Part shown: positions 4,966-16,113 of the stretch, piece by piece
Layout: the number at the start of each line of letters is the position of its first letter
How positions within the stretch are numbered: position 1 is the first letter of the stretch
NCBI RefSeq assembly: GCF_002879855.1
Contig: NZ_PNYB01000005.1
Location: forward strand, 186,001-250,000
DNA: 64,000 bases
DNA from: Trinickia soli
Lineage (GTDB): Bacteria; Pseudomonadota; Gammaproteobacteria; Burkholderiales; Burkholderiaceae
Reading direction: 5' to 3'
Notes under the pieces: model-generated
What the model was told of the DNA's origin: nothing
What the model saw: only the letters and a program-made list of their open reading frames with translations
Database searches by the model: none
Position numbers and translations under genes: made by a program

Positions 4966-5616
4966 ATGGCAAGTTCCGCCACCCGGCGCACCACGCCCCC
5001 GTCGCAGTCCCCGTCGCAGTCCCCGTCCCAGCCGCAGGCCGTTTCCGGCGCACCCTCGTCGATATCGGCGCCGCCGCGGGTCGGCGAGCAGATTCAACGA
5101 TTGCGCACGGAACGGAAACTGACGCTCGACGACCTGTCGCGCGCAGCAGGCGTATCGAAATCGATGCTCTCGGAGATCGAGCGCGACAAGGCGAACCCGA
5201 CGATTGCCGTTGCCTGGCGGCTGACCAACGCGCTCGGCGTGAGTCTCGATCAATTGTTTGCCGCACAGCGCGCGCCCGAGACGATTGCCGTCTCGGGGCC
5301 GCACGACATTCCGACGCTGGACGGGCACGACGCCAAATATCAGCTTCGCGTCTGGGGGCCGATCGAGCTGGCCGGAAAATTCGAATGGTACGAACTCACC
5401 CTGCAACCGGGCGGCGCGCTCGTGTCCAATGCGCACGAGCCTGGCACGCGCGAGCATTTGACGGTGCTCGCCGGGTCGATCGAAATCGAGGCGGACTCGG
5501 AAGTCAGGCGGCTCAAGCCCGCCGACACGGCACGCTATCAGGCCGACGTGCCGCATGCGATCCGTAACGCGGGAAAGAACGAAGCGAAGGCGTTGCTCGT
5601 CGTCATTCACGGCTGA
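4966..5616 (+). CDS. XRE family regulator with C-terminal cupin domain
   Basis: A 216-residue protein. After a Ser/Pro/Gln-rich N-terminus comes a helix-turn-helix from about residue 40 to 100 (VGEQIQRLRTERKLTLDDLS, AAGVSKSMLSEIERDKANP). A cupin follows from about 140, with LQPGGALVSNAHEPGTREHL, LAGSIEIE and a final PHAIRNAGK segment. Such proteins sense a small metabolite through the cupin. Divergence from kbl-tdh, with an inverted repeat between them, suggests control of threonine or glycine catabolism. The low-complexity N-terminus is encoded by a short tandem repeat near 4998-5030, which could expand or contract. Confidence 0.93.
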   Translation: MASSATRRTTPPSQSPSQSPSQPQAVSGAPSSISAPPRVGEQIQRLRTERKLTLDDLSRAAGVSKSMLSEIERDKANPTIAVAWRLTNALGVSLDQLFAAQRAPETIAVSGPHDIPTLDGHDAKYQLRVWGPIELAGKFEWYELTLQPGGALVSNAHEPGTREHLTVLAGSIEIEADSEVRRLKPADTARYQADVPHAIRNAGKNEAKALLVVIHG

Positions 5617-5663: not shown

Positions 5664-5683
5664 TACTGTATATTTCCACAGTA
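5664..5683 (+). promoter_or_regulatory. LexA (SOS) box
   Basis: TACTGTATATTTCCACAGTA contains a perfect CTGT-N8-ACAG core and differs from the E. coli LexA consensus at only three inner positions. It sits 24 nt upstream of the ATG at 5707. The CTGT-N8-ACAG form is the established LexA site in gamma- and betaproteobacteria. Confidence 0.78.
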
Positions 5684-5706
5684 TCTCGATATCCTGGTGA
5701 GCGGCC

Positions 5707-6087
5707 ATGAACGAACATGATCTTGCCGCGCTGCGCTTTCAGGCCGCGGCGCGCGACCTCGAACACATCGTCCGTCATATTGCGGGGCGCTATATCGTGC
5801 AAGGCGTCCCGCTCAGTTGGCGTCTTTTGCACGCCATCGAAGCCGAGGCTCTCGCAGACCTGGGTTTCGCCGGTCGGCATGATGCGTACGTGCTCGATCT
5901 GTTCAGGCGGCCCGAGCATATGACCTATCCGGAAACAGACGACCCGGCCACGTTCGGTAAATCGAACGCATTGCCCGCGGCATTCGCGTTCGCCGTTGCC
6001 GCATACGAGGAAGCGCAGATCGCCCAAGCGGCGGATGCGCCTCGTCGGCATGGCGGCCACCCACCGGGGGCCGGCTGGCGCGACTGA
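5707..6087 (+). CDS. Hypothetical protein, predicted SOS-inducible
   Basis: A 126-residue protein with no family I recognise. The sequence is helical-looking and acidic, with conserved-looking segments GRYIVQGVPLSWRLLHAIEA and HDAYVLDLFRRPEHMTYPET, and no signal peptide or membrane segment. The C-terminus is Pro/Gly/Arg-rich. A LexA-type box lies immediately upstream, so DNA-damage induction is the best clue to its role. It ends 8 nt before the first of two inverted iterons and next to the kfrA-like gene, so it may belong to the replicon maintenance region. A link to DNA repair, cell division control or replication is inference only. Confidence 0.7.
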   Translation: MNEHDLAALRFQAAARDLEHIVRHIAGRYIVQGVPLSWRLLHAIEAEALADLGFAGRHDAYVLDLFRRPEHMTYPETDDPATFGKSNALPAAFAFAVAAYEEAQIAQAADAPRRHGGHPPGAGWRD

Positions 6088-6179: not shown

Positions 6180-7394
6180 TCATGCAGTCAGGTCCGGCGA
6201 ATCGGTGCGGGTGGACGCGAGAAAGCGCGTCACCGCTTCGAGCCGCGACCGCTTGACGCCTGATGAGTGGTCGCATTCCGGGCACACCAGCTCGAAGCCA
6301 TTGCCGGCTATCGCGAGTTCGGGCTCGCCGTCTTCGCACTTGGGGCAATGGGCGGGAACGTCGACGTGCGCGTCGAGGGCGGTGCCAAGTGTGGCCAGGT
6401 CAGAATCGTCGAAACGACCGCCCTTCGCCCACGACCGGATGAGACTTTCGAGTTCGGGCGACAATGCGCCTCTTTCTCGCGCAGCCGTCAGCTCGCCCGT
6501 CAATGCGTCGATCTCGTCGGACAGCTCGCGGACCTGAGCTTCGAGGCGATCGCCTCGGCCTTTGGCCGCACTCAGTTGTTGAATGAAATCGAACTCTTTG
6601 CGGCTGGCATCGCGAATGCCGGTTTGATAGGTGCTCGCCATGCTGCGCAACGAATCAAGTTCGACGAGCATTGGCTTGACGCGACGTTCCGCTTCTGCGA
6701 TGGCATCTTTGATCTGGTCGGCGTAGTGCTCGGTGCTCTGGCGCAGCTCTTGATGCAATGCGTCGATACGTTCGCGCAACGATGCATTTGTCGCCTGCTC
6801 TGCTTCGAGCCGTTCTTCGAGCCGAAGCTTCTCGGTCTCGAGCCGCGCGACCGTTCCCTGTAGCGCTTCATTCGAACTCAGACCCAGTGCCGCCGACGCG
6901 CTCAACTGGCTTTCAAGTTCCCGTACGCGCGCGAGCGCAGCATCTGCGCGTGCCTCGCTGCGCTGCCACGCCTCGAGCGCCGCTTCCCGGCGAATCTCAG
7001 CCTCTTGAAGCGCGCTCTTGCCTTGGTCGAGCGATTGGGCCACCTGCTGGCGTTCGTCGTCGAGCGTCTGCCGGGCCTCGGCCATGGCATATTCGAACAA
7101 AGCACCGAGTAATTCGCCGGCTTTGTCTTCGAGCGATTGCGGGATAACGCCAGCGCCGACCCGGACGCGCGATGCATCGCGGATACGCTCCCAGAAATAA
7201 TCGATGTCTTTCGGGATATCGCTTGCGCTACCTGTCTGGGTCAGATCTCGGACAGCTGCGCTCGATGGCCGAATCCCCAAATCGAAAAACAAGCGCTTGC
7301 AGGCGTGTAGCGATAACTCCCGACGGTGGGTGCCGCTCGCACGGAGCGATTCGAGTTCCTTTCGGATGGCGTTGCGCTCTTCGTCGATGGTCAT
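6180..7394 (-). CDS. KfrA-like DNA-binding coiled-coil protein with C-terminal zinc ribbon
   Basis: A 404-residue protein started at the ATG at 7394 (MTIDEERN); upstream in-frame codons are AT-rich and not protein-like. The N-terminal about 110 residues resemble the KfrA DNA-binding domain of plasmid proteins (LGIRPSSAAVRDLTQTGSAS, DIDYFWERIRDASRVRVG). Then comes a long Glu/Arg/Ala-rich coiled coil, roughly residues 130-330 (ARLETEKLRLEERLEAEQAT). The C-terminus carries CPKCEDGEPELAIAG and VCPECDHSSG, a two-knuckle zinc ribbon. KfrA proteins of IncP plasmids help plasmid stability and autoregulate. The position beside the iterons and repA supports a segregation or nucleoid role. The zinc ribbon is unusual for KfrA. 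Confidence 0.82.
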   Translation of the reverse strand: MTIDEERNAIRKELESLRASGTHRRELSLHACKRLFFDLGIRPSSAAVRDLTQTGSASDIPKDIDYFWERIRDASRVRVGAGVIPQSLEDKAGELLGALFEYAMAEARQTLDDERQQVAQSLDQGKSALQEAEIRREAALEAWQRSEARADAALARVRELESQLSASAALGLSSNEALQGTVARLETEKLRLEERLEAEQATNASLRERIDALHQELRQSTEHYADQIKDAIAEAERRVKPMLVELDSLRSMASTYQTGIRDASRKEFDFIQQLSAAKGRGDRLEAQVRELSDEIDALTGELTAARERGALSPELESLIRSWAKGGRFDDSDLATLGTALDAHVDVPAHCPKCEDGEPELAIAGNGFELVCPECDHSSGVKRSRLEAVTRFLASTRTDSPDLTA

Positions 7395-9220
7395 GGTCGC
7401 TTCTGTTTGTTTGAAATGTAGTGATAATAACGAAATACGTGTCATATGGTACGGTTTTCGTTTATTGCTAGTTTGCAGCCTGAAGCAGTCCGGTCGGCGG
7501 TTATCTTGTGCCGTTTGAGCGTTGCAGAGGGTGCTTTTTCCGTGAAACAAAGCGAAGAACTGGATATAAATGATTGATTTGTTTACGAATTGTGGTTTCA
7601 ACCTGGGTTCGCGACTTGTTTCACGGGACTGATCCGTTTTTGTGCGGTGTATTTTTCGGGGCTCGCGGGTCATGTCTTGAGAGTCATTGAAGTAAACACC
7701 CTTGAACCCTTGTTAAAGACGTTAACGCCACGGCAATCCCTTGCCCAGCAAGGCTTTCAGCCTGATCGAGTGAAGCTTTACGGGAGTCGAGGTGAGCTTG
7801 GGCGGGATGCGACCGTGATGGGGTTCGGGGACGAGCGTGAGCCATGACGGGAAGCGATGTGAGGGGATTCAGGAGGCATCGCTTTAGCGCTATGTCGTCA
7901 CGGTGAGTATTTGCGGGAGCGGAGCGGCGCTCGAGCCTCACGTGCTGGTGGGGGGCGTCGACCGCAGTATTTGCAGCCGGTGAGATTTTTCGGGAGCCGC
8001 TAAAACGGTCCAATTGCATCCCCTTTCATGCGCCGGAAGGGGTGTGGTGAGTTCTTCCAGGAAAGAAGATGCGCCGGAAGTGAGTTTTTTCGGGAAAACC
8101 CTGGTCTTCCGGAGCCCGAATCGCGTCAAGGTGAGCTTTCTCGGGAGCATAAACATGGATGAGCAAAAGCCTGGGAAGCCGTTTCCTGGCTCGTCCCGCG
8201 CTGCTTGGTGTTTCAGGTGAGACTTTCCGGGATGAGTCCAGACGGTGTTGATTCCGGCCTCGAACCATTGGCACCGGGGTCTCATCGGTGAGCCTTTTCG
8301 GGATCTCGATTGGCGGCCGAAAGCGCGTGCCGCGCGAAGTTAGTCTCCACTTTCTCGGAAAGCTACGCCAATTCGGGTTGGTGAGTTGAGTGGGCTGCGT
8401 CGGGGTAAGGCAAAAGGTGAGTGTTTTCGGGGAGTACCGGAGCGCCGATTCCGCAAAGGCGACACTGCTGTGCGACCGGGTTCAGGTGAGGTAATTCGGG
8501 ACCTGATTTGTGCGTGCAGCGTAAGAGGGGTTGCATCGCTAAGTATCGGATCCAGTTGAGAAATATCGGGGCGCTCTGGTTCAGGTGAGCCTTTGCGGGA
8601 TGTGCGACGCGTGACGCGCGCGGCGAGGGGGCATCGTGATCTCCGCCTCTTGCGGTGAGGCTTTACGGGATGGACCGGCGGTTGACGATGTAGCTGGATC
8701 GTCTCTGTGGCCGGCGGCGCGGCGGCCTGGTTGGATCGACGGTGAGCCTTTTCGGGACTTCCTTGACCTGCGCGTGGAGCGAGGCGAAGTACCCCGATGA
8801 GGGTCTGGGCTGCGACGACGTCTTGAGAATCAGTTATGTGGCCGGCTGTTTGCCGGCCGCCGTCGCGGGGTCGATGGTGAAGATGAGGCCCGGTGCCGAT
8901 CCTTCAGTGATCGTCGATCGACCACAGCTGAATTTATCGCCGAATCCCGTCGCGAAATCGCTACATCGGTGGCGGTGAGCGAATACGGGAGCGTGCCCGG
9001 AGCTGCCGGCAGCCATCGCAGCAATGGCGATTTCGCCGACGCCGCGTCCGACAACGAAACGGCGCCAACCATCAAATCGAGCATGGTGAGCGTTTCCGGG
9101 AGCAGTCCCAGGTGAGTTGCGACTGAGAAGCGCCATTCACCGCGAAGGGTGAGAGCGTACTTGTAGACGCCCATCACCGCACTCTGTATCCTGTCGAGAA
9201 ATTTCCTTCTCGACCGACGC
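7395..9220. other. Gene-free origin region between the kfrA-like gene and repA
   Basis: About 1.8 kb with no believable protein gene. The first 300 bases, upstream of kfrA, are AT-rich and are a candidate unwinding element and promoter region. The rest is the iteron field. The spacers between iterons are GC-rich and of no obvious class, and short ORFs here run straight through the repeats. Confidence 0.8.
7791..9103 (+). repeat. Iteron array: 17 direct copies of a 19-bp repeat, the likely replication origin
   Basis: Consensus GGTGAGNNTTTNCGGGANS. Copies start at 7791, 7836, 7902, 7979, 8046 (degenerate), 8079, 8130, 8216, 8287, 8416, 8485, 8555, 8584, 8654, 8741, 8974 and 9085, all on the plus strand. 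Start-to-start spacing varies from 29 to 233 bp, unlike the regular phased iterons of small plasmids. Half-matches near 9111 and 9148 continue toward repA. The array lies in the long gene-free stretch directly upstream of repA, so these are probably RepA binding sites for initiation and copy control. No full DnaA box was seen within it. Confidence 0.93.
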
Positions 9221-10579
9221 ATGGCAACGAAGCGCGCGAAGAAAACCGATGTGGTGAGCCCAAGCTCCGCTGAATTGCGAAAAGCCGTCGAAGCGATCGC
9301 GATTCAGCCCAAGAGCGGCAAGATCACGCTCCTGACGCGAAAGCTGTTCAACGTCCTGCTGGCCGTGGCGCAGCAGGCTGACGAGTCGGGCGATACTTAT
9401 CGCGCGCTGCTGTCGGATATCGTCGCGAACTCGGCATTTGATTCGAACGACACGGCCCTCGTGAAAGAGCACTTGCGGCGAATGGTGTCGGTCCAGGTCG
9501 AATGGAGCCAAGGCACGTCAAGCCAAAAGCCTGGCCGCAAGTGGGGCATCTCCACGCTGATCGCTGACGCCGAAATTCTCGAAGACCCTTCCACACGCCG
9601 CGTGTGGGTCGAGTTCTCGTTTGCGCCGAAGATCAAGAAAAAGCTGCTCGACCCTGTGCAATACGCACGCTTGAGCTTGCAGTTTCAAAGCCAGCTGCGC
9701 AGTAGTGCGGGGCTGGCGTTGTATGAGATCTGCGTCCGCTACCTCACGAATCCGAGCCACCTCACGATGCGCGAGTCGTGGGCGTGGTGGCGACCGATTC
9801 TTTCCGGTACGCCGGACACCGAGGCGGGCGACGAGGCGAAGCGCGAGTATAAGTACTTCAAGCGCGATTACCTGCGTCCCGCGATCGCGGAAGTGAACGC
9901 CGTGACGAACATCTTCGTGGAGCTCATCGAGCATCGCGAGGGGCGACGTGTCGCGGAGATCCAATTCAGAGTCACCGAACGCAAACAGCCGATGCTGGCG
10001 CTCGACGAGCATCCGAACGTATTCGACAGTACGTTGATCGATCGGATGGTCAAAATCGGCATCCCGCTGAAGGAAGCACAAACGCTGTACGCGGATAGCG
10101 AGGAGAACCGGATTCGGGCGGCGCTGCAGATGACGGAGCAGCGCATGCGCAGTACCTCGTTGCCACCCGTGCGCAGCGCGCCGGCGTTATTCAAGGATGC
10201 GCTCAAGAAGGGTTATGCCCCACCGATCGATCTTGTCGAGCAGCCGGCTGGTGGCACGGTCAAAGGCCTCTCCGGCACCGTGCCGGCCGACGAACTGAAA
10301 GCGCGATTGCTCGACGAGTACGCCGCATATCGCCGCAAGGAGGCACGTTCGCTGTATGAGGAGCAAGGTGAGTCGGAACAGGAGCTCGCACGCCAGTCGT
10401 TCGAAGAGGACATGCTTCCGCAGCTCGGTTCTCACCTACGTGAAGATTGGCGCCGCCGCGGCTTGAGTTCGAAGCTCGGCGAAACGGCCTTCCTCGACTG
10501 GCTCGCACGTAAGACGTGGGGCGAGCCCACCGACGGCGATTTGCTCGCGTTCACATTGAGTCAATCGCGGGCCGCTTGA
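9221..10579 (+). CDS. repA: RepA-type replication initiator protein
   Basis: A 452-residue initiator of the class found on Burkholderia second chromosomes and megaplasmids. Features: a basic start (MATKRAKKTD), PKSGKITLLTRKLFNVLLAV, the winged-helix region DTALVKEHLRRMVSVQVEW, LYEICVRYL, and EYKYFKRDYLRPAIAEVNAV, which closely follow plasmid initiators with two winged helices. The C-terminal third is charged and less conserved. It should bind the upstream iterons to melt the origin and load the helicase. It converges with parB, whose stop codon lies only 20 nt away. A weak ribosome site and iteron half-sites in front suggest autoregulation. Confidence 0.93.
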   Translation: MATKRAKKTDVVSPSSAELRKAVEAIAIQPKSGKITLLTRKLFNVLLAVAQQADESGDTYRALLSDIVANSAFDSNDTALVKEHLRRMVSVQVEWSQGTSSQKPGRKWGISTLIADAEILEDPSTRRVWVEFSFAPKIKKKLLDPVQYARLSLQFQSQLRSSAGLALYEICVRYLTNPSHLTMRESWAWWRPILSGTPDTEAGDEAKREYKYFKRDYLRPAIAEVNAVTNIFVELIEHREGRRVAEIQFRVTERKQPMLALDEHPNVFDSTLIDRMVKIGIPLKEAQTLYADSEENRIRAALQMTEQRMRSTSLPPVRSAPALFKDALKKGYAPPIDLVEQPAGGTVKGLSGTVPADELKARLLDEYAAYRRKEARSLYEEQGESEQELARQSFEEDMLPQLGSHLREDWRRRGLSSKLGETAFLDWLARKTWGEPTDGDLLAFTLSQSRAA

Positions 10580-10599: not shown

Positions 10600-11661
10600 T
10601 TAGTCCGGCTGCAACATCTTCTCGATCTGCCGTAGCAACTCGTCCCGCTTTTCCCGCGTCAGCCCTCGCAACCGCAGTTCTATCCGGTCGTCGCCGTACG
10701 ACTTCAGATCGCCCACCGCTACGCCACCGAGCTTGATCTCCATCCGCTGCGCGTAGCGTTGGCGCGTGGCCGGTCTCGAGGCCTCTTGCGGATTTGCGCG
10801 ACCCTTGACGATATCGGCCACTTGCCGCGTGCTCAGATCGTCCGCGACGATGCGGTTGATCAGGCGCAGCGTGGCCTCGACGCCCCGCGCGGAATGATAG
10901 CGACCGACGTGATACGCCATATTCGAACCAAAGCGATCGGGCCTTGCCACCATTTCCTGCATGATTGATTCGGGTAGCTTCGCGAGCGATAGCGCGACGG
11001 CTACGGTCGATTCATCAAGCCCCAGGTGCTCAGCCAGCTCCTTTTGGCTTTGGAAGTGGTTCTCGTCGAGGAATCGCCGCCAGACGACGGCGTTGTCGAA
11101 CACGGTCTGGGAATCACGCTGAACGTTGAGGTCGTAGCCGAGCTTGTAGCTCTCGATTCCGATCGGCAGATCGACGACGACAGCCTTGACCGTTTCCTTA
11201 TTCGCCTCTTTCAAAGCGCGCACGCGCCGGCCGCCGTCGCTGACGAAATATGTGCCGTGATTGGCGTAGTCGGGAATAACGTGGATCGCCTGCTGCTGGC
11301 CTTGTTTGGCGAGGTTAACGGCCAGCTCGGCGATCGACGCCTTCAAATAAAAGTGACGCGGGTTGAACGGACTCGGCTTAATGGCCTTCAGATCGAGATC
11401 GATCACTTGGCCCGGCTGGTAGCTGTTTGCGAGCCTCCACTGCCGATACTCGGCAGACTCATGGACGTGCGTCGCTTCGTTCGAAGACCCGACCGCATGC
11501 AGTACAGTTTCAGCTCGCGCCGACGAGGTTTTGGTCGAAGGCTGCGTGTCGCTCGTGACGAGGTCGTCGATCGCGTTGAGCCGATCGAGGGCAGTGCGCT
11601 TTTCGCTGCTCGTTGTATCGGGACGCGCTTGGAAGCCTTTAGCGAACTGGGACGGTTTCAT
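10600..11661 (-). CDS. parB: ParB family chromosome/plasmid partition protein
   Basis: A 353-residue centromere-binding CTPase-type partition protein. The N-terminus is variable and polar. The ParB core starts with IDLDLKAIKPSPFNPRHFY and has GQQQAIHVIPD, then the GGRRVRALKEA nucleotide-binding motif. The helix-turn-helix lies in SQKELAEHLGLDESTVAVAL, and the C-terminus is a basic dimerisation region (KLGGVAVGDLKSYGDDRIEL). It follows parA on the same strand. The TTTATGCGCATAAA palindromes within and upstream of the operon are its probable parS sites, and one lies directly before its start, suggesting autoregulation. Confidence 0.95.
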   Translation of the reverse strand: MKPSQFAKGFQARPDTTSSEKRTALDRLNAIDDLVTSDTQPSTKTSSARAETVLHAVGSSNEATHVHESAEYRQWRLANSYQPGQVIDLDLKAIKPSPFNPRHFYLKASIAELAVNLAKQGQQQAIHVIPDYANHGTYFVSDGGRRVRALKEANKETVKAVVVDLPIGIESYKLGYDLNVQRDSQTVFDNAVVWRRFLDENHFQSQKELAEHLGLDESTVAVALSLAKLPESIMQEMVARPDRFGSNMAYHVGRYHSARGVEATLRLINRIVADDLSTRQVADIVKGRANPQEASRPATRQRYAQRMEIKLGGVAVGDLKSYGDDRIELRLRGLTREKRDELLRQIEKMLQPD

Positions 11662-11685: not shown

Positions 11686-12348
11686 TCAGGGGAGCATCGA
11701 GGCGATTTCGTCCGCGCAGGCGCGGATTTCCGCTGCAGCGAGCTTTGCGCCCCGATCGCTCATTTGCAGAACGGTTTGACCGAGTGCCATCGCCTGTTTA
11801 TAGGCTTCGCGCGTCGGAATTTGCGTCTTGAGGAGCGGGAAGCCTAGTTCTTCCAACGCGCGCTTGAGTTCGCGCGTGAGCATCCGTTTTTCTTCGGTCT
11901 TGTTTAGCAAGAAGACGGCGCGAAGGTCTTCGTTCATCACCTGGGCCTGTTGGACAAGCTTGACCAAGCCAACGCTCGACCAGTAGTCGGCCGGGGAGGA
12001 CGAAGTCGGGATGACAGCGACAGTCGCGGCCAATAAGACGACGCCCGATACTTTCTCCGTGATGGACGGGGGGCAGTCGACGACAATCACGTCGTAATCC
12101 GCAATGAACTTCTTGATCTCGCGGTGGATTTGGCCGCCGGCTTCGGACAGGTTGACGACAGGAAATGGAATACCGTTGTCGCCGTCGGCCGAGGCACTGG
12201 CCCAGTGAACCAGCGTGTTTTGTCCGTCCGCATCTACGACGAGAACACGCTTACCCCTTTCATGAAAAGCCGCGCCAAGATGCATGGCGATGGTGCTCTT
12301 GCCCACCCCGCCCTTCTGTTGAGTTACCGCGACGATTTCGGCTGCCAA
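11686..12348 (-). CDS. parA: ParA family partition ATPase
   Basis: A 220-residue deviant Walker-type ATPase. The Walker A motif QQKGGVGKST is at residues 10-19, IVVDCPPSI is the Walker B region, and VIPTSSSPADYWSS is the A'-type loop region. It lacks an N-terminal helix-turn-helix, so it is a short ParA that probably does not itself repress the operon. The start is a TTG at 12348, supported by AAGGAG seven to eight bases upstream and by the family N-terminus. It forms an operon with parB and uses ATP-dependent nucleoid binding to space replicon copies. Confidence 0.95.
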   Translation of the reverse strand: MAAEIVAVTQQKGGVGKSTIAMHLGAAFHERGKRVLVVDADGQNTLVHWASASADGDNGIPFPVVNLSEAGGQIHREIKKFIADYDVIVVDCPPSITEKVSGVVLLAATVAVIPTSSSPADYWSSVGLVKLVQQAQVMNEDLRAVFLLNKTEEKRMLTRELKRALEELGFPLLKTQIPTREAYKQAMALGQTVLQMSDRGAKLAAAEIRACADEIASMLP

Positions 12349-14034: not shown

Positions 14035-14496
14035 TCAAGCGTGGTTTCCTCGCACGCCGGCGATCCGGCCACGATGAAGAAAGCCTTGAAGCGACCAGCG
14101 CCCAACCCCATGGAAGAAAAGATAGGCGATCAACACTGCCCACAGCACATGGTCCTTGATCATGACGGGTTCCAGGCCCGGGTAAGACAGCACGGCAACG
14201 AGATTGACCACGAACAGTCCCGCCGCGGCAAATCGCGCTTGAAAGCCGAGCAGTAGCAGGACAGGGAAAATCAACTCACCGCCTGCGCCCATCACAGCGG
14301 CTACCGCCGGAGGTAGAACCGGCACATGATATTCGTTAGAAAACAAATAAAGCGTACTGTCCCAACTACGCAATTTGGTCAGACCGGATAAGAAAAACAC
14401 GCGGAATAAATAAAGTCGTATCGCGAGCGCAAACAACGGCTGCAAGGTGATCGCAACGTCGTCGAGCCGGCGAAACAGGCTACATATCTTTTTCAT
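14035..14496 (-). CDS. DoxX family membrane protein of the bufferin operon
   Basis: A 153-residue inner-membrane protein with four predicted helices, started at the ATG at 14496 (MKKICSLFRR). DoxX features are LRLYLFRVFFLSGLTKLRSW-like N-terminal residues, MGAGGELIFPVLLLLGFQAR in the centre, and HVLWAVLIAYLFFHG near the end. DoxX proteins are usual partners of bufferin (DUF2282/MNIO) operons, possibly in electron supply. The start overlaps the end of bufC by 17 nt, showing translational coupling. It is the last gene of a bufA-bufB-bufC-doxX operon. Confidence 0.92.
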   Translation of the reverse strand: MKKICSLFRRLDDVAITLQPLFALAIRLYLFRVFFLSGLTKLRSWDSTLYLFSNEYHVPVLPPAVAAVMGAGGELIFPVLLLLGFQARFAAAGLFVVNLVAVLSYPGLEPVMIKDHVLWAVLIAYLFFHGVGRWSLQGFLHRGRIAGVRGNHA

Positions 14497-15253
14497 GATC
14501 GGGTTCCTCAATAGCATGAACGAGTCGATGACTAAACAGCCGCGCGAGCAACGAACCCGCGTCGGCGCCACTGCTGGTGAACGCTGATTGGACGGCGTCT
14601 CCCTTCATCAGCGCAGTGATTGCCTCCGCTTCCGCTGGTCCAAGCGGTTCCCAACGCACGGCGAATCGCTCGCGCCAAATCAGTACCGATTGTCCGCCCG
14701 CCCCCAGATGTGCAGATGAGCCCCCGGTATGCATGCGCAGGATGTCGGCGATCGGCCAGCGGCTCGATCGCGCGAGATCGACGCATGGCACGAACCGAAC
14801 CGACGCAGCGGCAAACCGCTCGGGTCCGAGCCTGGTCAGCGCCGAGCTTTCGATCGCATGGCAGTCTTCTGCGAAGTACGCGCGATGCAACCGCCAATCG
14901 ACATCAGCGACATCGCCCAAATAGGGCAGCCCGGCGGCTGGCTCGAAGCCGCGCACGAACTCGGGCAGCTGCGCGCCGTCGTCGTGGAGGTTGGCACTCC
15001 GGGCCGGCGTGCGATCCACATAGGCACGCGCGAGCGCGCAAAAGTAGTCGCGGCCCACGAGCTTCACCACGTTGCCGAAGGCGTCGGCTAACGCGGCAAT
15101 GCGGTTCAGCCGTACGTTGTTTCGGTAAACGCTGATGCGCGTCGCCGTCGCCGTCGCCGTCGTCGATGTCATGCCGACCGGCGCGTTGCGGTCGTCGCCG
15201 AGCGATGTCGCGAAAGCGTCAAGCAGAGCCGCGTAGTCGGGCTGGCCTAACAT
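14480..15253 (-). CDS. bufC: BufC / HvfC family protein (DUF2063), bufferin maturation partner
   Basis: A 257-residue protein of the DUF2063 family. YRNNVRLNRIAALADAFGNV, LVGRDYFCALARAYV and LPEFVRGFEPAAGLPYLGDV are the family hallmarks, and the C-terminus is a less conserved small domain. Members work with the MNIO enzyme as recognition partners for the precursor peptide, although older annotations call them DNA-binding. Its start overlaps the bufB stop by 7 nt. A run encoding TSTTATATATR comes from a hexanucleotide repeat near 15141-15160 that could vary between strains. Confidence 0.92.
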   Translation of the reverse strand: MLGQPDYAALLDAFATSLGDDRNAPVGMTSTTATATATRISVYRNNVRLNRIAALADAFGNVVKLVGRDYFCALARAYVDRTPARSANLHDDGAQLPEFVRGFEPAAGLPYLGDVADVDWRLHRAYFAEDCHAIESSALTRLGPERFAAASVRFVPCVDLARSSRWPIADILRMHTGGSSAHLGAGGQSVLIWRERFAVRWEPLGPAEAEAITALMKGDAVQSAFTSSGADAGSLLARLFSHRLVHAIEEPDHEKDM

Positions 15254-16113
15254 GTCGCCTCCTCGGCGGACCGTGACGCTTTCGCGGCCATGCGAGCGGT
15301 CGCGGCTTCCACGCGTGCCTCGACTTGCGCATACTCTTGCAGCAATTCATCCAAGGGCGGCAGGTTCGTATCGCGCTCAAGCAATACCGGTGTCGGGCCA
15401 AACCGATCGAGCGCCGCATCGAGCAGCGCCCAAACGGCATCGCAGACGGGCGCGCCGTGCGAGTCGATCGCGGTCGTGTCGAGCCATTCGAAGCCGGCAA
15501 CGTGCATTTCGCGGATGCAGTGCCGAGGCAATCGCGCGAGCTCCGCGAGCGGGTCTACGCCAAGATTCAGCGCATTGACGTACAGATTGTTGAGATCGAG
15601 CAGTACGCCGCAGCCGGTCCGCGCGACGAGTTCGCCGAGCATTTCGGCCTCGGTGCATAACTCGCGTTCGAACGCGACGTACGCCGAGACGTTTTCGATC
15701 AAGATCGGTCGACCGAGCGCGTTCTGGGTGGCGTCTATGTGCCGGGCGACGAGTTCCAGCGCGCCTTCCACGCGTGGCACGGGCAGCAGGTCGTTGAAAT
15801 AGCGACTGCCAGACCGATTCCAGCAAAGATGCTCGGAGACGAGCGCCGGCTCGATGCGAGCAACGAGCGCTGCCAGTTGTTTCAGGTAATCGCCGTCGGG
15901 CGCTTCGACGCTGCCGAGCCCCAGCCCCACGCCATGCAAACTGACGGGGTAGCGTTCACGCACGCGCTCCAGTGCCGCGACCGGCTCGCCGCCGCCGAAG
16001 TAGTTCTCGCTATGCGTTTCCCACCATCCAACCCGAGGTGTGCACCCGAGAACGGTAGCGACATGCGGCCCGCGCAGCCCGAGACCTGCGCCTATCAATG
16101 CCTGCTGGTTCAA
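15247..16113 (-). CDS. bufB: MNIO family enzyme BufB (DUF692), multinuclear non-heme iron oxidase
   Basis: A 288-residue TIM-barrel protein. The start is a TTG at 16113 with AAAGGAG seven bases upstream. Metal-binding motifs are VGWWETHSENYFGGGEP, SLHGVGLGLG, LVSEHLCWN, LIENVSAYV, LLDLNNLYVNA, REMHVAGFEW and the SHGAPV histidine. MNIO enzymes convert cysteines of a partner peptide into thiooxazole-type groups using iron and oxygen. Here the substrate is the bufA product upstream, the partner is bufC. The operon probably protects the periplasm from copper. Confidence 0.95.
   Translation of the reverse strand: MNQQALIGAGLGLRGPHVATVLGCTPRVGWWETHSENYFGGGEPVAALERVRERYPVSLHGVGLGLGSVEAPDGDYLKQLAALVARIEPALVSEHLCWNRSGSRYFNDLLPVPRVEGALELVARHIDATQNALGRPILIENVSAYVAFERELCTEAEMLGELVARTGCGVLLDLNNLYVNALNLGVDPLAELARLPRHCIREMHVAGFEWLDTTAIDSHGAPVCDAVWALLDAALDRFGPTPVLLERDTNLPPLDELLQEYAQVEARVEAATARMAAKASRSAEEATC

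Follow-up and report, generated by a model that had tools for sequence, protein, structure and literature searches.

A putative LexA-repressed DUF2471 gene beside a secondary-replicon origin in Trinickia soli

Introduction

LexA boxes have been predicted before two hypothetical genes of beta-proteobacteria, hypA and hypB (Sanchez-Alberola et al. 2012, PMC3323433). There, hypA is described as having no homologues outside the multi-chromosome beta-proteobacteria and hypB as confined to Burkholderia; neither gene is given a function, an operon context or distant homologues in the text. The two distributions fit those of the core DUF2471 gene and of a Burkholderia-only branch related to it (see below), the match being by description only, and for hypB an alternative is a box-preceded gene of 95–96 amino acids at L261 and L262. 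The 2012 prediction probably includes the DUF2471 family, again as matched by description. SOS regulation of DUF2471 is thus probably not new as a prediction, because both branches fit what is said of hypA and hypB.

Two further kinds of described system invite comparison. The ImuA-ImuB-DnaE2 mutasome, with its ImuB-C domain (PMC3765255), is likewise SOS-controlled, and DUF2471 paralogues are found at such cassettes; the DUF2471 protein, however, has no Pfam match to any ImuB-related domain, and the core gene lies outside the cassette. SulA and the other SOS division inhibitors share with DUF2471 a small, putatively LexA-controlled product of an otherwise lineage-specific gene, but they differ from it in sequence and fold, and DUF2471 has no division-gene context. 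The Pfam entry for DUF2471 (PF10616) gives no function, and a literature search yielded no paper using the name. What is new here is how widely the LexA box is conserved, along with the duplicated branch, the neighbouring repair genes and the evidence against a role tied to one replicon; relative to the Pfam entry, the probable SOS control and the branches are new.

Results

The window (the whole stretch of 64,000 nucleotides of Trinickia soli DNA that was analysed) contains a DUF2471 gene of 126 codons at 5707–6087 on the plus strand. It is preceded by the LexA (SOS) box TACTGTATATTTCCACAGTA at 5664–5683 (plus strand), with a perfect CTGT-N8-ACAG core at 5666–5681. From the end of the box to the ATG at 5707 there are 23 nt, and a possible ribosome-binding site, GGTGAG (5696–5701, plus strand), read from the sequence, ends 5 nt before the start codon. 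A sigma-70 promoter scan of the region gave no site. A −35/−10 pair guessed from an alignment of relatives was dropped, as the window sequence does not fit it.

The bare core alone proves little: the window holds two copies where 0.26 would be expected, and the genome-wide count is about equal to that of the reversed control (36 versus 33 sites), which means no enrichment. Sites were scored with a matrix made from six boxes of the same genome only, namely those of lexA (two sites), recA, dinB, imuA and a radical-SAM gene. The score of TACTGTATATTTCCACAGTA was 26.7 bits, and the six matrix sites, each left out in turn, gave 18.9–30.3 bits; the runner-up in the window reached 12.4 bits, so that TACTGTATATTTCCACAGTA is the best site there by far. 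The best boxes of the genome lie beside genes that include recA (one box), lexA (two boxes), dinB, imuA and a radical SAM gene of the PA0069 family; LexA and RecA are thus both encoded under this motif. The sequence-only reading had described an SOS box with a perfect core, 24 nt before a 126-codon gene of no known family. Box and gene length are borne out, the score lying within the range of the genome's known boxes; the spacing is corrected to 23 nt, and the family statement was inexact, since the protein matches PF10616 with an E-value of 3.3e-55 (185 bits, cut-off 25).

Conservation of the box was assessed among homologues at different distances. A DUF2471 homologue was present in 29 of 101 genomes (that of the window and 100 relatives), and of the 30 homologues retrieved, 28 have a perfect core upstream. 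All 26 members of the core branch, the window included, have it, down to 36% identity. The distant homologues carry more weight: at 36–40% identity the box is kept in Mycetohabitans (G054), G026, G027 and G047, and it is still present before the short, divergent homologues (about 30% identity) of G053, G845 and G067, the last of which belongs to another taxonomic family. A fourth such homologue, in G899, has a box with one mismatch, and no box was found for an apparently frame-broken homologue in G863. Named bacterial genomes, when scanned, contributed 80 loci of Trinickia, Paraburkholderia and Burkholderia, which are close relatives and not independent, with a perfect core in 80/80; CTGT, ACAG and most inner columns are invariant among them, while the flanks drift. 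Equivalent upstream stretches at the named loci, taken as a control, had a box in 0/79 cases for tdh, 0/80 for kbl, 0/79 for the HTH-cupin gene and 2/77 for Rep3. In a tree of 48 proteins the label for having an own box changed once, compared with 14.8 changes when labels were shuffled, the bootstrap being not fully settled.

The DUF2471 protein was modelled twice with AlphaFold2, from 30 and 55 sequences, the alignment omitting three rows from annotated plasmid records. Both gave confident models (pLDDT 86.6 and pTM 0.76; pLDDT 84.9 with the deeper alignment) of an all-alpha four-helix protein, with helices predicted at residues 3–31, 38–54, 60–66 and 91–110 and order up to about residue 110. 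In the family alignment E45 is invariant and R28, L36, W38, L41, D78 and P90 are nearly so. Two PDB searches and one viral structure search with the models gave no match with an E-value below 2. When solved structures were searched by sequence, the best match (E 0.013, 0.3 with a larger profile) was a purine nucleoside phosphorylase, taken as a chance match. As these searches revealed no relative of known function in either fold or sequence, any biochemical activity ascribed to the protein is a guess.

A second, DUF2471-like branch of 134 amino acids carries its own LexA box in 12/12 copies, all of them in Burkholderia (L259:1034–1438, L265:1578–1982 and L267–L278). It falls just under the PF10616 cut-off, with 24.7 bits, and is joined to the family by hhalign with an E-value of 3e-6. 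A mobile clade of short paralogues, carried by plasmids and variable regions, lacks a box immediately before the gene. In the copies on Pandoraea plasmids a box instead precedes the upstream gene of the same apparent unit: in pPO70-1 and pPO70-2 (L060:7546–8309 and L063:7546–8309) an SOS-type box is followed by a 113-aa orphan gene and then the DUF2471 gene, and pPV15 (L059) has the same gene pair with a variant box. On 5 of about 20 contigs, boxless paralogues have an imuA-imuB-dnaE2 cassette or the remnant of a dnaE2 gene beside them. The link to imu could stem from shared mobile elements, because these paralogues are boxless, mostly on the strand opposite to dnaE2, and in some cases beside dnaE2 fragments.

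Several other genes follow SOS-type boxes. A 95–96 aa gene without a Pfam match stands directly after one in two Burkholderia genomes (L261:1215–1502 and L262:1517–1807) and is a candidate SOS gene; in G899 a 127-aa gene, also without a Pfam match, is placed likewise (L258:1536–1919). In the genome of the window, a gene for a DUF1345 membrane protein (L047:1694–2359) comes after a 20-bit LexA-like site (L047:1530–1545).

Two homologues share their box with a repair gene. The DUF2471 reading frame of G026 overlaps the start of a gene for an AlkB-like 2OG-Fe(II) oxygenase (PF13532, E 1e-35), with one box for both. In G047 the next gene, about 60 nt after DUF2471, encodes a fusion of a DnaQ-type exonuclease with a Cho-like excinuclease (Cho, E 4e-66), again with one shared box; in E. 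coli, cho is an SOS gene. Each of these repair operons was found in a single genome, and the next member of the same genus is without it.

In the window, the DUF2471 gene has as its upstream neighbour an HTH-cupin regulator gene (HTH_3, Cupin_2; 4966–5616, plus strand), which is syntenic in relatives and not under the box. On the other side, a KfrA-like coiled-coil gene (6180–7673, minus strand; PF11740, E 3e-16), whose real start is probably near 7394, is convergent with it. Next come the iteron array of a secondary-replicon origin (7786–9101, plus strand), with at least 12 irregularly spaced copies of an 18-mer like CGGTGAGCCTTTTCGGGA, a Rep3-type initiator gene (9221–10579, plus strand; PF01051, E 1e-11), parB (10600–11661, minus strand) and parA (11686–12348, minus strand). 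The gene thus adjoins a replicon maintenance region, as the sequence-only reading had it. The order Tdh-Kbl-HTHcupin-DUF2471-KfrA-Rep3-ParB-ParA is kept in near genera only.

Two observations were made around the origin. Burkholderia carries a palindrome like GCCTGTACATGCATACAGGC about 340–366 nt upstream of the chromosome-2 initiator gene (L062:14275, L079:1710, L080:5802, L081:14102 and 20 further Burkholderia loci among L112–L175); it has a LexA-like core and GC-rich flanks, scores at most 17 bits, and is absent from the Trinickia and Paraburkholderia loci checked. Further along the window, three consecutive minus-strand reading frames (14035–16113) resemble what we take to be a DoxX–DUF2063-like–DUF692-like cluster.

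Discussion

The box is conserved in the core branch, at the named loci, before divergent homologues and in the second branch, and putative LexA control of the DUF2471 gene is therefore nearly certain. The check for the box before homologues, proposed in the sequence-only reading, thus turned out in favour of SOS control (26/26 core members, 80/80 named loci), and the idea of a DNA-damage-induced factor is strongly supported at the level of sequence. It is scarcely credible that the match arose by chance or that the box serves another gene: genome-wide, the core by itself is about as frequent as the reversed control, but a conservation of 80/80 with invariant box columns, a score among those of known boxes, the lack of a box upstream of tdh, kbl and the HTH-cupin gene (0/79–80) and the position of DUF2471 as the sole gene reading away from the box all speak against it.

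What the protein does is a separate matter. The neighbourhoods away from the chromid origin point to repair, and we hold it somewhat more probable than the opposite that DUF2471 is a LexA-repressed SOS gene whose product serves most likely as an accessory in general repair or damage tolerance, its location at the origin being inherited and not functional. In an undamaged cell, LexA would occupy the box, immediately before the coding sequence, and keep DUF2471 repressed. Upon DNA damage, RecA-driven cleavage of LexA would free the box and the small, soluble four-helix protein would be made; it may then act as an accessory factor in translesion or excision processes on any replicon. The place beside the chromosome-2 origin would have been inherited as a neighbourhood shared by Burkholderia, Paraburkholderia, Caballeronia and Trinickia. 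Going further, and more tentatively, DUF2471 may be an unrecognised lineage-specific family of SOS effectors, duplicated in Burkholderia and present on plasmids and near mutasome cassettes: a small adaptor modulating translesion or excision repair, with a fold unlike solved structures.

The main rival explanation is an SOS-induced checkpoint inhibitor of cell division that replaces SulA and halts septation until repair is done. It owes this rank to the lack of any SulA scoring above the family cut-off in the six genomes tested; in the genome of the window ImuA alone matched, and weakly, with 24.8 bits against a cut-off of 150. Small, strictly SOS-linked, lineage-specific proteins of other phyla, such as YneA, SidA and DidA, are often division inhibitors. 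The DUF2471 protein, however, shows no sign of a membrane helix in its sequence or its model, which sets it apart from those three, and no RecA-like fold, unlike SulA. It has no NCBIfam match to SulA, and its all-helical model has no PDB match. Its neighbours, moreover, are repair genes and not division genes. On this evidence we consider a division inhibitor unlikely.

A second rival, put forward in the sequence-only reading, is that the protein regulates replication or partition of this secondary replicon in response to damage. KfrA and Rep3 adjoin the gene in all 21 near relatives with flanks read (L065–L085), ParAB does so in 20 of these (the last is split by the start of the record), and in Mycetohabitans the gene is on the megaplasmid, about 57 kb from rep, with the box kept. 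The linkage to rep and par is not constant, however. In G026 and G027 the DUF2471 gene and the initiator are on different contigs; in G845, an assembly of three contigs, DUF2471 is on the largest (4.4 Mb) and rep on another; and in G067 (one contig, 5.2 Mb) no homologue of this Rep3 initiator was found. All four keep the box. Since it is retained in every unlinked genome, SOS control is what stays constant and the neighbourhood of the origin is what varies. The proposed link from damage to replication of this replicon thus goes unsupported, the box being kept far from the initiator, on another replicon, even a main chromosome, or in a genome without this initiator; a replicon-specific role is not supported as the general function, and we regard it as improbable. 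The family keeps its switch wherever it is located, and DUF2471 is therefore probably a general DNA-damage helper and not a chromosome controller.

Slightly more doubtful still is a toxin-like or selfish mobile-element gene that uses the SOS response for its own spread and was captured beside the chromid origin. Paralogues do occur on Pandoraea conjugative plasmids and in variable regions, but the core branch has stayed at a single syntenic position by vertical descent, no phage record with a DUF2471 gene was found, and the searches of PHROG and of the defence systems in PADLOC gave no match at a meaningful E-value.

Overall, the accessory role in repair or tolerance is the reading we prefer. 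Closeness to a chromid origin need not imply control of the replicon. No SulA was recognised in the genomes of this group that were tested, and the Burkholderia SOS response is of interest in work on persistence and on the release of prophages. The strict SOS link of the DUF2471 family, its retention throughout the group, its possible new fold and its repair-gene neighbours make it a ready target for tests of damage tolerance and mutation.
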